Shown piece after piece: positions 1 to 30,109 of a stretch of 32,480 nucleotides of DNA. The stretch comes from Nitrospira sp. Its GTDB lineage: Bacteria; Nitrospirota; Nitrospiria; Nitrospirales; Nitrospiraceae. The DNA is taken from the NCBI GenBank assembly GCA_005116815.1, contig SWDR01000022.1, positions 60,294-92,773 of the forward strand. Direction: 5' to 3'. The notes beneath the pieces were generated by a model that did no database searches, was not told where the DNA came from, and saw only the letters and a list, made by a program, of their open reading frames with translations. The first letter of the stretch is position 1. The number at the start of each line of letters is the position of its first letter. A program made the position numbers and the translations under genes.

Positions 1-1079
1 ATGCGTTTCGAGGGTGCGAGGCCGATTAACTTCGGGACGCGCAAATCGCCGGTAAAGATATAGGCGCGCCATCCATTGAAGCGCTGTTTCAACCAGTCGC
101 CCAGCTTGGGATAGAACGCATCCAGTTCTTCCGGCCGGCTGAGTCGGACTCCATAGGGGGGATTGATCAGGATCACGCCCTGTTCAGCCGGCGCTTCGAG
201 GTCGAGGACGTCGCTTTGCCGCAGGCGGATATCGAACGCGACCCCCGCACCCTGAAACGTCCGCTGGGCGATTTTTACCGCAGCGGGATCCTGGTCGGAC
301 GCATAGATGGGCGCCGGCACCTCTGCCAGTTGTTTCACCCGTGAGGCTTCGCGCAGATGGCCCCACCGTTTGGGGTCGTGGACGATCAAGCGCTCAAAGG
401 CAAATGTCCGCGACTGCCCCGGTGCGATCCGGCGTGCCATCATCGCCGCTTCGAGCGGGATTGTTCCTCCGCCGCACATAGGGTCGAGCAATACCTCCTT
501 GGGCGTCCACCCGGCGAGCCGCAGCAGGCCCGCCGCCAGGTTTTCTCGCAACGGGGCTTCGACGGACACCACTCGATGGCCTCGTTTGAAGAGCGGGTCA
601 CCGGAGGTGTCCAGATAAAAGGTCACCGTGGACTCATCGAGAAACGCGTCGATCCGGAGGTTCGGGTTGTGGGTATCGACATTCGGTCTCTTGTGCCGCA
701 CGGCCATGAACTTATCGCAGACGGCGTCTTTGATCCGCAGTGTGATGAAGTCCAGGCTGGTGAGGGGACAACGGCGCGCACTCACTTTGACCTTGATGGT
801 TTGTGACGAGGTGAACCAGTCCGGCCAGGCAAGACTATAGGCGGCGCGGTAGACATCGTCTTCCGAGAGATAGGGGGCCTGTCCGACTTCCCAGAGCACG
901 CGGCTGGCAATGTGACTCTTGAGATTGACCCAGTACATGGTGGCCCAGGGCGCCAGGAACGCGATGCCTCCGTCCGTCTTTGTGGTCATCGGCACGCCAA
1001 GGTCGTGGAGTTCCTGTTCGAGGACGCCCTCCAGCCCACTTGGGCAGGGTGCAAAGAACCGTAGTTTTGTGCTATCCAT
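1..1079 (-). CDS. rlmL: 23S rRNA (guanine-N2) methyltransferase, RlmL/YpsC type, 3' end outside window
   Basis: This is an AdoMet-dependent RNA methyltransferase of the THUMP-containing COG0116 family, which methylates a guanine N2 in 23S rRNA in the cytoplasm. About 359 residues are visible before the window edge. The N-terminal part (about residues 45-160) matches a THUMP RNA-binding region. The Rossmann methylase follows, with motif I DPMCGGG at residues 199-205 and the catalytic NPPYG at 306-310. The visible end, FTGDLRVPKLIGL...SKR, is the usual place near the C-terminus in the short (about 380 aa) forms, so little is probably missing. The E. coli enzyme carries a second (RlmK) methylase domain; whether one follows here cannot be seen. 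Start ATG at 1079, divergent from the Nudix gene with only 29 bp between. The family is sure; the exact target base is inferred. Confidence 0.88.
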   Translation of the reverse strand, partial: MDSTKLRFFAPCPSGLEGVLEQELHDLGVPMTTKTDGGIAFLAPWATMYWVNLKSHIASRVLWEVGQAPYLSEDDVYRAAYSLAWPDWFTSSQTIKVKVSARRCPLTSLDFITLRIKDAVCDKFMAVRHKRPNVDTHNPNLRIDAFLDESTVTFYLDTSGDPLFKRGHRVVSVEAPLRENLAAGLLRLAGWTPKEVLLDPMCGGGTIPLEAAMMARRIAPGQSRTFAFERLIVHDPKRWGHLREASRVKQLAEVPAPIYASDQDPAAVKIAQRTFQGAGVAFDIRLRQSDVLDLEAPAEQGVILINPPYGVRLSRPEELDAFYPKLGDWLKQRFNGWRAYIFTGDLRVPKLIGLAPSKR

Positions 1080-1108: not shown

Positions 1109-1648
1109 ATGAACTATTGCAGCGCTTGCGGCACGTCTGTGACGAAAAAAATTCCAGCCGGAGACAATCGTCTTCGGTTTGTGTGCGATTCATGCCAGAC
1201 TATTCATTACCATAATCCGAAAATCGTCGCAGGCTGTATTCCGGAGTGGGACGACAAAATCCTTCTCTGCCGGCGCGGGATCGAACCCAAATCCGGCCTC
1301 TGGACCTTTCCCGCTGGCTTTATGGAAATCGGCGAGAGCACCGAACAGGCGGCCGCTCGGGAGACCTTCGAAGAAGCGCAAGCGCTGGTGGAGCGGATTT
1401 CTCTCTTTGCGGTCCTGAGTCTCCCGCACATCGGCCAGGCGTACCTGGTCTTTCGAGGGCCGATGGCTTCACCTGAATTCGGTGTCGGTGAAGAAAGCCT
1501 TGAAGTCCAACTGTTCACGCTCGACGCCATTCCCTGGGATGAGATCGCCTTCCCTGTCGTGAAGGAAGCGCTTCGCCGTTACGTCGACGATGTCACGCGG
1601 GGCACGTTCCAGGTCCATGTGGCGAGCCTCTCGGATCGACTCACCTAG
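1109..1648 (+). CDS. Nudix hydrolase with N-terminal zinc ribbon
   Basis: This 179-aa protein hydrolyses a nucleoside diphosphate linked to some other moiety; the exact substrate is not known. A zinc ribbon opens the protein (C4, C7 and C26, C29), followed by the Nudix fold. The Nudix box runs from G70 to A92: G70, E76, R84-E85 and E88-E89 are all present, while the usual late glycine is Q91. Zinc-ribbon Nudix proteins of this form resemble the NADH pyrophosphatase NudC group but lack its long N-terminal domain, so NAD specificity should not be assumed. I chose ATG 1109 because homologues of this type begin just before the first CxxC; a longer reading frame starts at 980 but would overlap the divergent methyltransferase gene. 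The ribosome binding site is weak. Confidence 0.8.
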   Translation: MNYCSACGTSVTKKIPAGDNRLRFVCDSCQTIHYHNPKIVAGCIPEWDDKILLCRRGIEPKSGLWTFPAGFMEIGESTEQAAARETFEEAQALVERISLFAVLSLPHIGQAYLVFRGPMASPEFGVGEESLEVQLFTLDAIPWDEIAFPVVKEALRRYVDDVTRGTFQVHVASLSDRLT

Positions 1649-1758: not shown

Positions 1759-2073
1759 TTAATTCAGTGTGGGTATCGTGAGGAGTGGCCGGCTGCGGCC
1801 CTCGCCGTCGTGGAGAAAGCGAAATCCTCCGGCCTCGGTGTAGTCGACTGTCACCCCTTCCATCCGCGGCGCACTGCGTCGATCCACTGCGATCGTGAGA
1901 CCGTCGACTTCCTGGACGTCGTCATCGGGCTGGGTCGTGGCTTCCAACATAATATTGAAGCTTAAACGTGATTCATCCAGGTCTCGTACGGACACCCGGA
2001 CGATCGGATCCTCGGGATGGTCGACTTGGATCGATTTCAGTTTTGCGATGGCGGCAATCGTGATGGCAATCAT
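1759..2073 (-). CDS. Cysteine-free A-type (IscA/HesB-like) protein
   Basis: This 104-aa protein aligns along its length with the A-type iron-sulfur carriers IscA/ErpA/HesB: an opening beta strand and helix (MIAITIAAIAKLK), the RVSVRDLDESRLSFNI strand pair, the EVDGLTIAVD and GVTVDYTE segments, and a final GFRF strand. The family normally holds iron or a cluster with three cysteines, one in the GCSG turn and two in a C-terminal CGC. Here there is no cysteine at all: DESR stands at the first site and the C-terminus has none. Cluster binding of the known kind is therefore unlikely. ATG 2073 has an AGGGAG ribosome binding site and overlaps the TGA of the upstream RelE-like toxin gene (ATGA), so the two are probably translationally coupled. 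The fold assignment is good; the function is unknown. Confidence 0.72.
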   Translation of the reverse strand: MIAITIAAIAKLKSIQVDHPEDPIVRVSVRDLDESRLSFNIMLEATTQPDDDVQEVDGLTIAVDRRSAPRMEGVTVDYTEAGGFRFLHDGEGRSRPLLTIPTLN

Positions 2074-2333
2074 GTACGAAGCTCCCTCTGGCGGAGGATG
2101 CGGTGGATGTCGACCAGGTGATCGTTCCGATCGATGGAGTAAAAAATTCGCCAATCCTCGACAGCATATTTCGAAAGGCCTGGCAGGTCCGGCGCGATGG
2201 GTTCGTGCCTCAAGTTATCGACGTTGGAGGCAATCCATTTGGTCTTGTCCAGGAGTCGCTGTGCCATGGCCGGATCCAGGTTCGTGAGATCGTGGAGCAG
2301 CGCTGGTCGATAGGCGAGTCGGTACCAGGCCAT
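2070..2333 (-). CDS. RelE/ParE-family toxin
   Basis: This 87-aa protein has the pattern of RelE-type toxins: an opening beta strand (YRLAYRP), two helices with a DLxxL motif, the LPGLSKY turn, a central strand EDWRIFYSID and a last strand HLVDIHRILRQREL. RelE toxins cleave mRNA on the ribosome; related ParE toxins act on gyrase. The many basic residues in the last strands fit RelE, but the sequence alone does not decide. The start ATG 2333 lies 7 bp after the stop of the small upstream gene, the usual antitoxin-toxin spacing. The stop overlaps the start of the A-type protein gene by four bases. A longer frame beginning at 2378 would overlap the antitoxin gene and is less likely. Confidence 0.8.
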   Translation of the reverse strand: MAWYRLAYRPALLHDLTNLDPAMAQRLLDKTKWIASNVDNLRHEPIAPDLPGLSKYAVEDWRIFYSIDRNDHLVDIHRILRQRELRT

Positions 2334-2340
2334 GATGTGC

Positions 2341-2544
2341 TTACCAGCGGAGCCCGAGCTGATCTGCGAGGTCTTCACCCGAGAGTCTTTCCGTGCTGGA
2401 GAGGGATTCTTTCAAGCGGGCACGCAGCTCCTCGCTCAGTTGGAGGCCGAGGTCGGGATCGCCCAATAATTCGCGCAGGCGATCGTCGACAAACCCGCGT
2501 ACGAGTTCTTTCAGTTGTGTCGGGGAAAGTTGGGCGAGATCCAT
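2341..2544 (-). CDS. Probable antitoxin of the RelE-like toxin
   Basis: This 67-aa acidic, helical protein (LSPTQLKELVRGFVDDRLRE, then GDPDLG, then a second helix) stands immediately upstream of the toxin in the same direction. Size, charge, position and spacing fit an antitoxin that neutralises the toxin by binding it. I do not see a clear ribbon-helix-helix or HTH DNA-binding segment, so autoregulation is not shown. The start is ATG 2544; GTG 2550, two codons earlier, is equally possible, as neither has a good ribosome binding site. The role is inferred from context and from similar small proteins preceding RelE toxins. Confidence 0.65.
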   Translation of the reverse strand: MDLAQLSPTQLKELVRGFVDDRLRELLGDPDLGLQLSEELRARLKESLSSTERLSGEDLADQLGLRW

Positions 2545-2597
2545 ATTCACCGAGGATACGGAGGCTGATGCCTAAAATGCAACTGGGGATGGGCGAT

Positions 2598-2924
2598 CTA
2601 CTGAAGGCCGGCTTTGGGTTGGAGCTGCTTGATCATGAGGCTCAAGCGGTCTTGCTGTGGGGCGGCTATGGTCAGAAACTCTACCCCAATGCCGGCGGAT
2701 CCGGACCAGCGCACGGTGGCATTGTCGATCAGGATCGGTTGAGGCTCGCCTGGAATATGTAATTGAATGGTGATCTGCATGCCGGTAAAGGGGCTGATCA
2801 GACTCTCCACGCGACAGCCCTTGGCCGAAAGGTCTCGGACTGACCCTGTATGGCGGAACTGATTCTGGTGCACTAAGGTGCTGGAGAGCGACACGGGAAA
2901 CCTGGGATGTTTTCTTGTGACCAT
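2598..2924 (-). CDS. PilZ domain protein, probable cyclic di-GMP receptor
   Basis: This 108-aa protein is a stand-alone PilZ domain. Both ligand motifs are present: the arginine pair R4xxxR8 near the N-terminus and DLSAKG (D31, S33, G36). These residues bind cyclic di-GMP in known PilZ proteins, so a receptor role is well supported, although the process it controls is not visible. The rest forms the expected six-stranded barrel, ending in a helix (RLSLMIKQL). It is transcribed away from the FKBP gene and lies upstream of, and in the same direction as, the antitoxin-toxin unit, separated from it by about 50 bp. The ribosome binding site before ATG 2924 is weak. Confidence 0.85.
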   Translation of the reverse strand: MVTRKHPRFPVSLSSTLVHQNQFRHTGSVRDLSAKGCRVESLISPFTGMQITIQLHIPGEPQPILIDNATVRWSGSAGIGVEFLTIAAPQQDRLSLMIKQLQPKAGLQ

Positions 2925-17607: not shown

Positions 17608-17639
17608 GGGTCGGATCCCTCTAAGATAGATTGCAACCT

Positions 17640-18095
17640 ATGGACGTGCTCATTCTCTTAGCCCTTATTACTATTTCAGCCGTGATATCTACGGCTGAAA
17701 TCGGCTTCTTTGCTGTGAATGATACGAAGCTGCGGGCGCTTGTCCAGAATCACAATAAACGGGCACAGATGGCACTTCAGCTGCGCAGTGACCCGCAGAG
17801 GCTGCTCGCCACGATACTTATCGGTGACCGTCTCGTCAGCACGGCTATTCCTATGTATGCCGCCTTCTTGACCTTGAATATCTTCGAGGGGGAACGGACA
17901 TTTTTCAACGATTCCGTCGCAGTCGTCGTTGGGTTGCTCACATTTGTATTGCTTGTTTCCGTCGACGTCATTCCAAAGACCTTGGCGGCGAAGTTCGCCA
18001 TACCTGTGACGTTGAACATGTCCTATCCTATCTATGGCGTCGAGCTGCTTCTGAAGCCGCTTCTCTTCGTGATGGTTCCGTTCATCCATAGTCAT
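17640..18095 (+). pseudogene. Truncated CNNM/HlyC-CorC-type transporter gene (5' part only)
   Basis: About 150 residues match the N-terminal membrane domain (DUF21/CNNM) of the CorB/HlyC family, which is linked with magnesium and cobalt export: AEIGFFAVNDTKLRAL, then DPQRLLATILIGDRLVSTAIP and the conserved VIPKTLAAKFA. After PLLFVMVPFIH the sequence ceases to be transporter-like and runs into antisense ligA sequence, stopping at 18158. The CBS and CorC domains of a complete protein (about 350-430 aa) are missing. The start is ATG 17640; the frame opens with TTG 17631. The join lies at about 18088-18098, where the reverse-strand ligA sequence begins. It may be a real rearrangement or a false join in the assembly. 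Confidence 0.8.
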
Positions 18096-18098
18096 TCC
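18088..18098. other. Junction between truncated transporter gene and truncated ligA
   Basis: On the plus strand transporter homology ends at about 18089. On the minus strand ligA homology ends at 18096, the last conserved glycine of ATRGDG. The few bases between could belong to either gene. No insertion sequence, att-like repeat or spacer is present: the two genes meet tail to tail directly. Confidence 0.75.
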
Positions 18099-18515
18099 GT
18101 CGCCCCTGGTCGCTCCACGGGTGAACATTCCATGATCGTAGACCAGTTCAACCGATAACCCATCGAACTTTGGCTCCGCGCTGTACTCAACGGCAGGGGT
18201 TTCCAGTTCGCGTTTCATCCGTTGATCGAATGCCTGGACCTCCTCCTGATCGACAATCGAGTCCAGGCTGAGCATCGGTTGCTCGTGGGGAACCTTGATC
18301 AGCGACTCAAGCGGTGGCGCGCCGACCCGTTGGGTCGGGGAATCGGGCGTGACGAGTTCCGGATAGGCTTGTTCCAGATCTGTCAGCTCGCGGAATAGAC
18401 GATCGTAGTGGGAATCGGAAACCTCCGGACGATCCTTGACGTAGTAGAGATAGTCGTGGCGTCTGATTTCGTCTTTGAGCGCGATCAGTCTGGCAAGGAT
18501 GTCGGCGTGGGCCAT
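18096..18515 (-). pseudogene. ligA: Truncated NAD-dependent DNA ligase gene (first 140 codons)
   Basis: This fragment encodes the N-terminal Ia domain and the beginning of the adenylation domain of LigA. HDYLYYV (residues 20-26), the PDSPTQRVG segment (58-65) and the catalytic lysine K116 in EPKFDGLS are intact, and conservation continues to G140 in ATRGDG. The next codons would normally read TTGEDVT, but here the frame passes into the antisense strand of the transporter gene and ends at 17676. About 530 residues are missing: the rest of the nucleotidyltransferase domain, OB fold, zinc finger, HhH and BRCT. The product could not ligate DNA. LigA is essential in bacteria, so a complete copy must exist elsewhere or the join is an assembly error. 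The start is ATG 18515 without a clear ribosome binding site. Confidence 0.85.
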
Positions 18516-18609
18516 AGGGCTTGAATGGTAACGAACAGAGGAGGTGACAGTTTCGAACCGTACCATAGGGGTAGGGAGTGGGTCAAACGACGAAGGTGCC
18601 ATATTCGCT

Positions 18610-18638
18610 TTGACTTTCGCTGCGTTAGACATTATTCT
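18610..18638 (+). promoter_or_regulatory. Sigma-70 promoter for the LysM-trp gene cluster
   Basis: TTGACT (18610-18615) and TATTCT (18633-18638) are separated by exactly 17 bases, matching five and four of six consensus positions. It lies about 100 bases before the LysM lipoprotein start, and no other good promoter is seen before trpE. The leader shows no Trp-codon peptide or attenuator. Confidence 0.5.
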
Positions 18639-24110: not shown

Positions 24111-25304
24111 ATGGGCGCAGTTCCCAATAAACAAGGCCGCTTCGGTGCCTACGGTGGACGGTATGTTCCTGAAACACTCATGCCCGCGTTGCTTGAGTTG
24201 GAGGAGGAATATGCCCGTGCGAAAAAAGACCGGCGCTTCCAGTCCGAGCTGGCCTATTATTTAAAACACTATGTCGGTCGACCCACCTCGCTCTACTTCG
24301 CGCAACGACTCACCAAGCGACTGGGTGGCGCGAAGATCTATTTGAAGCGTGAAGACCTCTGTCATACCGGCGCCCATAAGATTAATAACGCGATTGGCCA
24401 GGGGCTGCTGGCCCTGCGGATGAAGAAGCCGCGCATCATCGCTGAAACAGGGGCCGGGCAACATGGCGTGGCGACGGCAACCGTTGCGGCGATGTTCGGT
24501 CTGCAATGTGAAATCTATATGGGGACCGAGGACATGCAGCGCCAGGCGCTGAACGTGTTTCGGATGCGATTGCTCGGCTCGACCGTGACCGGCGTCGATG
24601 CCGGTAGCCGCACGCTGAAGGATGCGATCAGCGAAGCCATGCGGGATTGGACGACGAACATCCGCACGACGCACTATATTCTCGGTTCAGTGCTTGGGGC
24701 CCATCCCTATCCCATGATGATTCGGGACTTCCAAGCTATCATCGGGCGTGAAACCAGACGACAGATCCTGGCGGCAGAAGGCCGTTTGCCTGATTGCCTC
24801 ATTGCCTGTGTCGGCGGTGGTAGCAATGCCATGGGGCTCTTTTATGCATTTATCAAAGACAAGAAAGTAAAGATGATTGGCGTCGAAGCGGGCGGTCTGG
24901 GGGTCGCGAGCGGAAAACATGCTGCGCGTTTTGAGGGAGGCAAGCCTGGCGTCTTGCAAGGCACCATGACTTACCTGCTCCAGGATGAGGACGGACAAAT
25001 TAATCTGACGCATTCCGTGTCGGCCGGCTTGGATTATGCCGCGGTCGGTCCCGAACATAGTTATTTGCGTGATCAAGGTCGGGCCTCATACACGTCGGTG
25101 ACCGATGATGAAGCGATGGGGGCGTTCGACTTACTGGCGAGAGAAGAGGGGATCATGCCGGCTCTCGAAAGCGCTCATGCCATCGCCCACGCGGTGAAGG
25201 TGGCGCCCACGATGAAGAAGAGCCAGATCCTGGTCGTGAATCTCTCCGGTCGTGGTGATAAGGATGTGCAACAGGTCGCGAAGATGCGAGGAATCACGTT
25301 ATGA
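24111..25304 (+). CDS. trpB: Tryptophan synthase beta chain
   Basis: This 397-aa PLP enzyme condenses indole with serine to give tryptophan. PLP binds to K90 in [10 protein letters not shown], and the phosphate loop is GGGSNAMG. Landmarks [40 protein letters not shown] and [12 protein letters not shown] mark the TrpB1 type that works with TrpA. ATG 24111 gives the usual length and has GAGG six bases upstream; the frame is open from GTG 24099. The stop overlaps the trpA start by four bases (ATGA), which favours equal amounts of the two chains. Confidence 0.97.
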
Positions 25305-28828: not shown

Positions 28829-30109
28829 TTATTCATAACGCAGGGCCGCCACCGGCTCGAGTTTGGCTGCCTGACGAGAGGGGAGCAGCGTCGCGGCAAA
28901 ACTGATGAGGATCGCCGAGCCGGCAACCAGGAGCACATCGGAGGCCAGCACGTGCACGGGTATGCGTGAGATGTAATAAACCGTCGGGTCGAACGTCCAA
29001 AACGTTTGGATCAACCAGAGAAAGGCATACCCAAGCGGAATGCCGATGGCGGTGCCGGTCAGCCCGATGATCAGCCCGTTCAGCATGAAGATCCGGCGAA
29101 TACTTTTCTTCGTCGCACCCATCGCTTTCAAAATGGCGATCTCTTTTTGTTTTTCGGTCACGATCATCGTGAGGGTGCTGACGATGTTGAACGACGCCAC
29201 GATGGTGATCAGGACCAACAGGAGAAACATCATCGTCTTCTCAAGCTTCAAGGCAGAAAAGAGGTTGCGGTTCATCGCCATCCAGTCTCTCGCTCCGTAG
29301 GCGAATCCCAATGAATGTTCCACCGATCTGGCGGTTTCATCGGCGCGAAAGACGTCGGTCACCTTGATTTCGACGCCCGTGACCGACCCACTCATGTTGA
29401 AAAACTTCTGCGCCTCGGCGAGGTCGATGTAGGCCAGCGAGGAGTCGTATTCATACATGCCGGATTGAAAGATGCCGGCGACGGCGAAGGTCCGGATCTT
29501 CGGGACCATGCCGATAGCACTAATGGGGCCAGCAGGAGGGGAGACGACGTTCACCGTATCGCCCATAAAGGCGCCGAGCCGCAATGCGAGTTCTTTCCCC
29601 AGGATAATACCGGGCTTTTCCGTTTCGACCGGCGTTCCGGTTGGATCGTCAGCCGGTGGTTGTTTGATCTTGACCGGCTTTTGAAGATCGCTCAACTCGC
29701 CAGTCGAAAGATTCTTGGCCAGTTCCGTGACCTTCCCTTCCCGCTGGGGATCGATCCCCCTGATCACGACGCCTTGCACGCCGGATGGCGTGGTCAACAT
29801 GACTTGCTTCAGGATAAAAGGAGTTGCGGCGACCACATCCGGCACCTCCTGTACCTGTAGGGCGACCTTGTCGTAATCGGTCATCCCGTCTTTCATGCGG
29901 TCCTGCACGACGATATGGGCCGTCGTGCCGAGAATCTTCGCCTGGATGTCTTCTTTGAAGCCGGTCATGATGCCAACGGTGCCGATCAAGGCAGCCACGC
30001 CCAGCGTAATGCCCGCGATCGACACGAAGGTGTTGAGGGAAATCGTCCGATTGCGCCGTTTGGCCCGCAAGTAGCGGAGCCCGACAAAAATTTCGTATGG
30101 AACGGTCAT
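28829..30109 (-). CDS. lolC: Lipoprotein-releasing system transmembrane subunit, LolC/LolE family
   Basis: This 426-aa protein has one transmembrane helix near the N-terminus (about 25-48, [22 protein letters not shown]), a periplasmic domain of about 230 residues of the MacB type, and three helices at the C-terminal end (about 290-312, 340-365, 385-410). The coupling region is [23 protein letters not shown], typical of LolC/LolE. It pairs with LolD. Only one such gene is present here; E. coli has both LolC and LolE, while several phyla use a single homodimer-forming subunit (LolF-like), which may be so here. Its ATG overlaps the lysS stop by four bases (ATGA). Confidence 0.88.

Follow-up and report, generated by a model that had tools for sequence, protein, structure and literature searches.

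Is a gene that overlaps the toxin gene of a toxin-antitoxin (TA) pair a working part of the TA system, or a neighbour that shares its operon? This question is raised by a locus of Nitrospira sp. in which an antitoxin-like gene, a RelE-like toxin gene and a gene for an IscA/HesB-like (A-type) protein follow each other. The locus lies in a stretch of 32,480 nucleotides of contig SWDR01000022.1 (assembly GCA_005116815.1), hereafter called the window, which is carried by a metagenome-assembled genome (MAG) of 1.97 Mb that is 71.6% complete. The initial annotation offered two readings of the third protein, either a new role such as binding partner or chaperone of the toxin, or an unrelated gene trapped by overlap. 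Our analysis favours, with a probability of about 77%, a type II TA operon that belongs to the RelE/ParE superfamily and is autonomous, its last gene being an independent and older cysteine-free A-type gene.

Organization of the locus

The gene order first described, with a gap of 7 bp between the antitoxin and toxin genes (2340-2334) and an ATGA overlap between the toxin and A-type genes, was confirmed in its coordinates, and all three genes are on the minus strand (Table 1). A 4-bp overlap by itself is not unusual in this window, as others are observed between trpB and trpA (25301-25304) and between lysS and lolC/E (30106-30109), the latter being overlapping genes without an obvious common role. 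Of the neighbouring genes, the one at the window edge encodes an RlmL-like protein that matches NF008748 with an E-value of 7.8e-91, yet remains under the cut-off of that model. Elsewhere in the window (17631-18632), a truncated CNNM-domain gene on the plus strand meets a truncated NAD-dependent DNA ligase gene on the minus strand tail to tail, and one ORF reads across the junction, which may be a chimera of the MAG assembly or a real deletion.

Table 1. Features of the TA/A-type locus and of its surroundings, by position in the window.
Feature	Position	Strand	Basis
RlmL-like 23S rRNA methyltransferase gene, next neighbour, continues past the window edge	1..1079	-	UPF0020/THUMP/RlmL_1st
Nudix-type hydrolase gene, convergent, downstream	1109..1648	+	ORF, named from sequence reading; also neighbour in relatives
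Cysteine-free A-type (IscA/HesB-fold) gene, 104 aa, distal	ATG 2073, stop 1759	-	Pfam PF01521; fold model
ATGA start/stop overlap of toxin and A-type genes	2070..2073	-	Same spacing in 26/26 same-genus loci
RelE/ParE-superfamily toxin gene, 87 aa, non-canonical C-terminus	ATG 2333, stop 2070	-	Pfam PF05016; fold model
Antitoxin-position gene, 67 aa, first of the operon	ATG 2544, stop 2341	-	ORF; directly 5' of toxin in relatives; pattern common with distant partners
Candidate operon promoter TTGCAT-18-TATCCT	2553..2582	-	Conserved block 5' of antitoxin
PilZ-domain gene, upstream neighbour	2598..2924	-	PF07238, E 2.4e-12; also neighbour in relatives

The toxin and its probable partner

The naming of the second protein as a RelE-like toxin is borne out by its match to the Pfam family PF05016 (ParE_toxin; E 3.1e-7, above the cut-off), which is obtained for 29/29 aligned members, and by its structural model. 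The model is closest to RelE structures, with a Z-score of 12.1 to 9g12_B and scores of 11-12 over the RelBE structures 9g12, 3g5o, and 4fxe, and Foldseek also finds RelE. The C-terminal residues of RelE, of the GHRxE[IV]Y type, play a role in catalysis. This motif, or a sequence near it, is present in ten distant relatives of the toxin within the phylum (loci L166-L175), where both the R and the Y are found in 10/10. Among 57 distinct Nitrospiria toxins, the motif is not conserved: the Y is not one of the common residues and the R is found in 23, the invariant residues being N40-E44, R62, D68, R69, and H77. The Nitrospiria toxins therefore lack the GHRxE[IV]Y-type residues by which a RelE-type ribosome-dependent RNase would be recognized, and the strong conservation of a toxin that appears to have lost the C-terminal motif of its cousins is possibly a surprise. 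The available part of one report states that the catalytic residues of RNases are missing from ParE toxins (PMC11980606). At two of the distant loci (L166 and L175), an unrelated ORF follows the toxin gene, also with a 4-bp overlap, so that overlap by a third gene may be frequent in this toxin family.

Neither the first protein of the operon nor its 20 aligned relatives gave a convincing family match in Pfam, NCBIfam, or the other libraries searched; no solved structure resembling this protein was matched, and PADLOC returned no useful match. In all ten distant relatives, the toxin gene is directly preceded by a small ORF exhibiting DPDYGL and C-terminal LGL patterns. Because these ORFs carry the DPDYGL...LGL pattern in the same position, the assignment of the first protein as the probable partner of the toxin is sound by position and pattern. 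A small partner gene is conserved beside the toxin in the relatives, except at one distinct linked locus, where a contig edge cuts the gene. What stands of the label antitoxin-like is thus the position and the pattern common with distant partners, to which no family or structure match can be added.

The A-type protein

The third protein matches PF01521 (E 2.2e-7, above the cut-off) and stays under every NCBIfam cut-off. Its AlphaFold model, with a mean pLDDT of 84 and low confidence for residues 92-104, is closest to E. coli IscA (1r94_A; Z 14.5, rmsd 2.0, 93 residues aligned), and both Pfam and the model indicate the HesB/IscA fold. The fold score is lower for DsrR than for IscA (2k4z; Z 12.7, rmsd 2.9, 97 aligned), and the model also aligns with PdhI/YneR (9a4q; Z 9.6, rmsd 3.1, 86 aligned). 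A profile match to DsrR 2k4z was not obtained at an E-value of 10 or better.

As had been noticed from the sequence, this PF01521 member contains no cysteine at all, and the three-ligand C...CxC pattern is missing. E34 aligns with the cysteine that we take to be the first ligand of E. coli IscA, and its column is acidic in 13/13 rows of a first alignment (A1). The toxin-linked A-type proteins have no cysteine, and the unlinked ones have at most one stray cysteine, never at a ligand position, one unlinked clade exhibiting a single cysteine elsewhere. Two A-type carriers with C...CGC are encoded at other loci of the same genome; together with the missing cysteines, they led us to reject an Fe-S carrier role for the protein studied here. 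The loss of the cysteines spans a Nitrospirales-wide A-type group, with or without the TA pair, and so is not tied to the pair, the linkage to which it probably precedes. A loss common to the whole group, pair or no pair, does not point to a new role in TA. A scan of genome contigs for the A-type family, made with one peptide pattern, matched only Nitrospirota, one MAG labelled Nitrospinota, and one record labelled Nitrosospira. A second alignment (A2), comprising the window protein and 43 of the 53 listed references, with the broken L103 and nine others excluded, shows 18 invariant columns over 44 sequences. Apart from L103, the A-type ORFs are intact in nearly all loci.

Conservation of the three-gene order

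In a survey of 61 relatives, all three genes are linked in 26 of the 32 same-genus genomes, that of the window included. The remaining six are MAGs that are 71-89% complete and have no close orthologue of any of the three genes, and genes missing from such fragmented MAGs are weak absences owing to incompleteness. Among the 29 genomes outside the genus, the A-type gene is found in 9 and a close pair in 13, one more genome (G055) having a broken toxin; the genes are linked together in G033 only, 34 bp apart. The linked order is also present in Candidatus Nitrospira defluvii (FP929003) and the Nitrospira defluvii group. In the 54 named loci found with the A-type profile, the toxin is directly upstream in 29 and is not in 25.

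The distance from the toxin stop to the A-type start was compared over 44 distinct linked loci. Identical toxin-antitoxin pairs were counted once, here and in the comparison of the antitoxins, and the duplicate views L033-L040 were skipped in the cysteine, spacing, and antitoxin comparisons. The distance is -4 bp in 28 loci, +2 in 11, +5 in 2, and -7 in 1, with +34 and +87 occurring once each, which places 42/44 between -7 and +5 bp. This near-constant spacing holds across A-type proteins that are only 44-50% identical, and its lasting closeness would agree with selection acting on coupled expression. Within Nitrospira, the three genes do form a tight unit of long standing, although not an obligate one.

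Occurrence of the pair and of the A-type gene apart

Each of the two parts, pair and A-type gene, was found in the absence of the other, also where the chromosomal site is the same; the initial annotation had named such findings as those that would speak against a coupled role. Across 295 genomes of the phylum, the pair is present in 65 and the A-type gene in 52, in a tally that was compiled by hand and excluded toxin matches weaker than E 1e-29. The two are linked in 29 genomes and both present but apart in 9, with the pair only in 27 and the A-type gene only in 14. The third gene does not always accompany the pair, 27/65 pair genomes being without it and 9 having it elsewhere.

In two genera (g6 and g2), the same site holds the pair but no A-type gene, in the order pilZ-antitoxin-toxin-nudix-RlmL. 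The pair lies beside nudix without the A-type gene at L110-L112, L115, L116, L118-L120, L123, and L129, most of them with pilZ and RlmL, and further at L149-L152, L163, and L164. Other g6 genomes keep the Nudix gene with the pair also gone, the PilZ gene being near in L153-L158 and L161 and not in L159, L160, and L162. In other Nitrospirales, the A-type gene adjoins an RlmL-like gene in 11 of the 25 pair-less named loci (L069-L073, L086, L088-L090, L092, and L100). This distribution, which is not a dated tree, suggests that the neighbourhood of the A-type and RlmL genes is the older one.

The separability of the pair and the A-type gene, also at the same site, rules out an obligate three-part system. 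Since either part is kept in relatives that lack the other, we take the third gene to be most probably a neighbour within the same operon, not a component that the TA system needs. Of the two readings first put forward, that of a separate gene sharing an operon fits better, and a role as partner or chaperone is the less likely one.

In genus g6, the A-type gene is located at other places, for example at L136, L139, and L141-L145, mostly in pair-less genomes. Three g6 genomes have both, 20 the pair only, 8 the A-type gene only, and 8 neither (Fisher p 0.027, uncorrected for kinship). This mutual scarcity of the pair and the A-type gene is not predicted by a simple neighbour model.

Promoter, selection and origin

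A promoter-like block, TTGCAT-18-TATCCT, ends 8 bp before the ATG of the antitoxin gene, and this position suggests a leaderless mRNA. In most of the loci shown, the TTGCA...TATNCT block is much alike whether or not the A-type gene is present, the exceptions being L030, L067, and L127, where no such block is evident. A generic sigma-70 promoter scan reported neither this block nor any other promoter, and a terminator scan gave one terminator-like site, which is at chance level.

Over 26 genomes, the median dN/dS is 0.125 for the A-type gene, 0.142 for the toxin gene, and 0.106 for the antitoxin gene, these values being rough as the median dS is near 0.9. All three genes thus appear to be under purifying selection, beyond what chance ORFs would exhibit. 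Their G+C content of 0.571-0.597 compares with 0.556-0.611 in eight other genes of the window. With the toxin as query, tblastn at E 1e-5 found no match in 72,556 plasmid or 50,697 phage records, and the reading as a mobile TA was rejected at that threshold. The pair looks like an old chromosomal one.

Alternative explanations

The A-type protein could be a true third TA component in Nitrospira, that is, a partner or chaperone binding the toxin or the antitoxin, which was acquired in the linked genera and is dispensable elsewhere. The long-lasting order and the near-constant spacing in genera g1, g17, and g21 agree with such a role, as does the finding that, in genomes of the genus, close orthologues of the parts never occur without each other. 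We nevertheless consider it unlikely, as the same site still carries the pair where the A-type gene is missing, and the conserved A-type residues (H19, P20, D22, R26, D31, E44, D51, R70, F84, H88, and others) are common to members with and without the pair. The toxin and the antitoxin are also alike in loci that have the A-type gene and in loci that lack it. In the 44 linked loci, the antitoxin is 67 aa long in 33 and 71-72 aa long in 10, the extra length being N-terminal and a matter of start choice, whereas in the unlinked loci it is 67 aa long and ends with LGLRW in 19/19. The C-terminus LGL[RHK]W is the same in linked and unlinked loci, and no chaperone-addiction-like tail was seen when these were compared; this common end speaks against a tail of the kind found in toxin-antitoxin-chaperone (TAC) modules.

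A similarly improbable reading takes the vertically kept RelE-fold pair, without its usual C-terminal motif, as a regulatory switch, of which the A-type protein, supplied at a fixed ratio through the ATGA coupling, would be a third subunit in the linked genera. If this were true, the A-type subunit would tie the switch to the metabolic or metal state.

We regard as very unlikely that the pair is a domesticated regulator, for example a ribosome- or RNA-binding one, which is no longer a toxin system and acts in the same pathway as the A-type protein. The fixed site and the lack of plasmid and phage matches to the toxin could be explained in this way, as could the 37 invariant columns in the alignment of 29 toxins and the low dN/dS of a protein from which GHRxE[IV]Y is nevertheless missing. 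However, other conserved residues, namely E44, K55, R62, and H77, could form an active site, and the pair is dispensable, since some relatives lost it.

That the A-type gene is decaying and merely rides along by overlap, as its absence from many g6 genomes might indicate, is highly improbable, being disfavoured by its dN/dS as well as by its invariant columns and by ORFs that are intact nearly everywhere.

Proposed model

In our best reading, an autonomous TA operon took in, as its distal gene, an ancestral gene for a DsrR/PdhI-like non-Fe-S protein. This reading builds on the gene order, conservation, separability, folds, missing cysteines, and conserved upstream block observed here. A single promoter just 5' of the antitoxin gene would drive all three genes as a shared transcript, and the antitoxin would bind the toxin directly and thereby neutralise it. 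Coupled translation of this mRNA would also yield the A-type protein. The latter would hold no Fe-S cluster and, like DsrR and PdhI/YneR, would probably be a small regulator that acts by binding a target protein of its own.

If this model holds, an ancestral gene unrelated to a TA pair can be kept in the operon of that pair over long evolutionary times, and it would be wrong to conclude from a shared operon alone that a system has three components. The analysis further delimits, in these important nitrite oxidisers, an A-type family that is without cysteines across the order, and a RelE-fold toxin whose sequence is strongly conserved but whose C-terminal end has changed.

Comparison with known systems

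A partial literature search, covering titles and the starts of abstracts, found no published operon of RelE and A-type genes in Nitrospira, and Nitrospira is not mentioned in the available portion of the main text of a study on the evolution of A-type proteins (PMC7144353). With RelBE modules, the pair described here has in common the toxin fold and a small upstream partner; it differs in the lost C-terminal motif and in an antitoxin belonging to no known family. TAC modules also consist of three genes in a row, and their chaperone-addiction tail is described in the accessible parts of two reports (PMC5105189, PMC6377645). In contrast, the third gene here belongs to PF01521 and is not SecB-like, and the antitoxin is without a tail specific to third-gene systems; the non-SecB-like third gene and the absent antitoxin extension rule out a TAC module.

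The IscA, SufA, and ErpA carriers share their fold and Pfam family with the A-type protein, which is missing their three ligand cysteines. Two proteins with other roles are closer in kind. DsrR of Allochromatium vinosum (2k4z) likewise has the IscA fold; it is 20% identical to the A-type protein, acts in sulfur oxidation, and is not linked to any TA pair in the material consulted. PdhI/YneR of Bacillus subtilis (9a4q), which has an IscA-like fold, binds and blocks the E1 component of pyruvate dehydrogenase according to the available text (PMC10090944); it is also 20% identical to the A-type protein, and its target and context differ.

The arrangement itself resembles higBA-higX of Caulobacter, where an ancestral unrelated gene is likewise located downstream of a TA pair. 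The accessible part of that report presents higX as ancestral and higBA as inserted upstream of it, likely recently, the two being 42 bp apart in Caulobacter (PMC13384398). Unlike higBA-higX, the Nitrospira genes overlap, and the pair is compositionally ordinary and long kept. As far as these sources go, there are precedents for each half of the proposed arrangement, in IscA-like proteins with other roles (DsrR and PdhI) and in higX, an ancestral gene that came to lie downstream of a TA pair.
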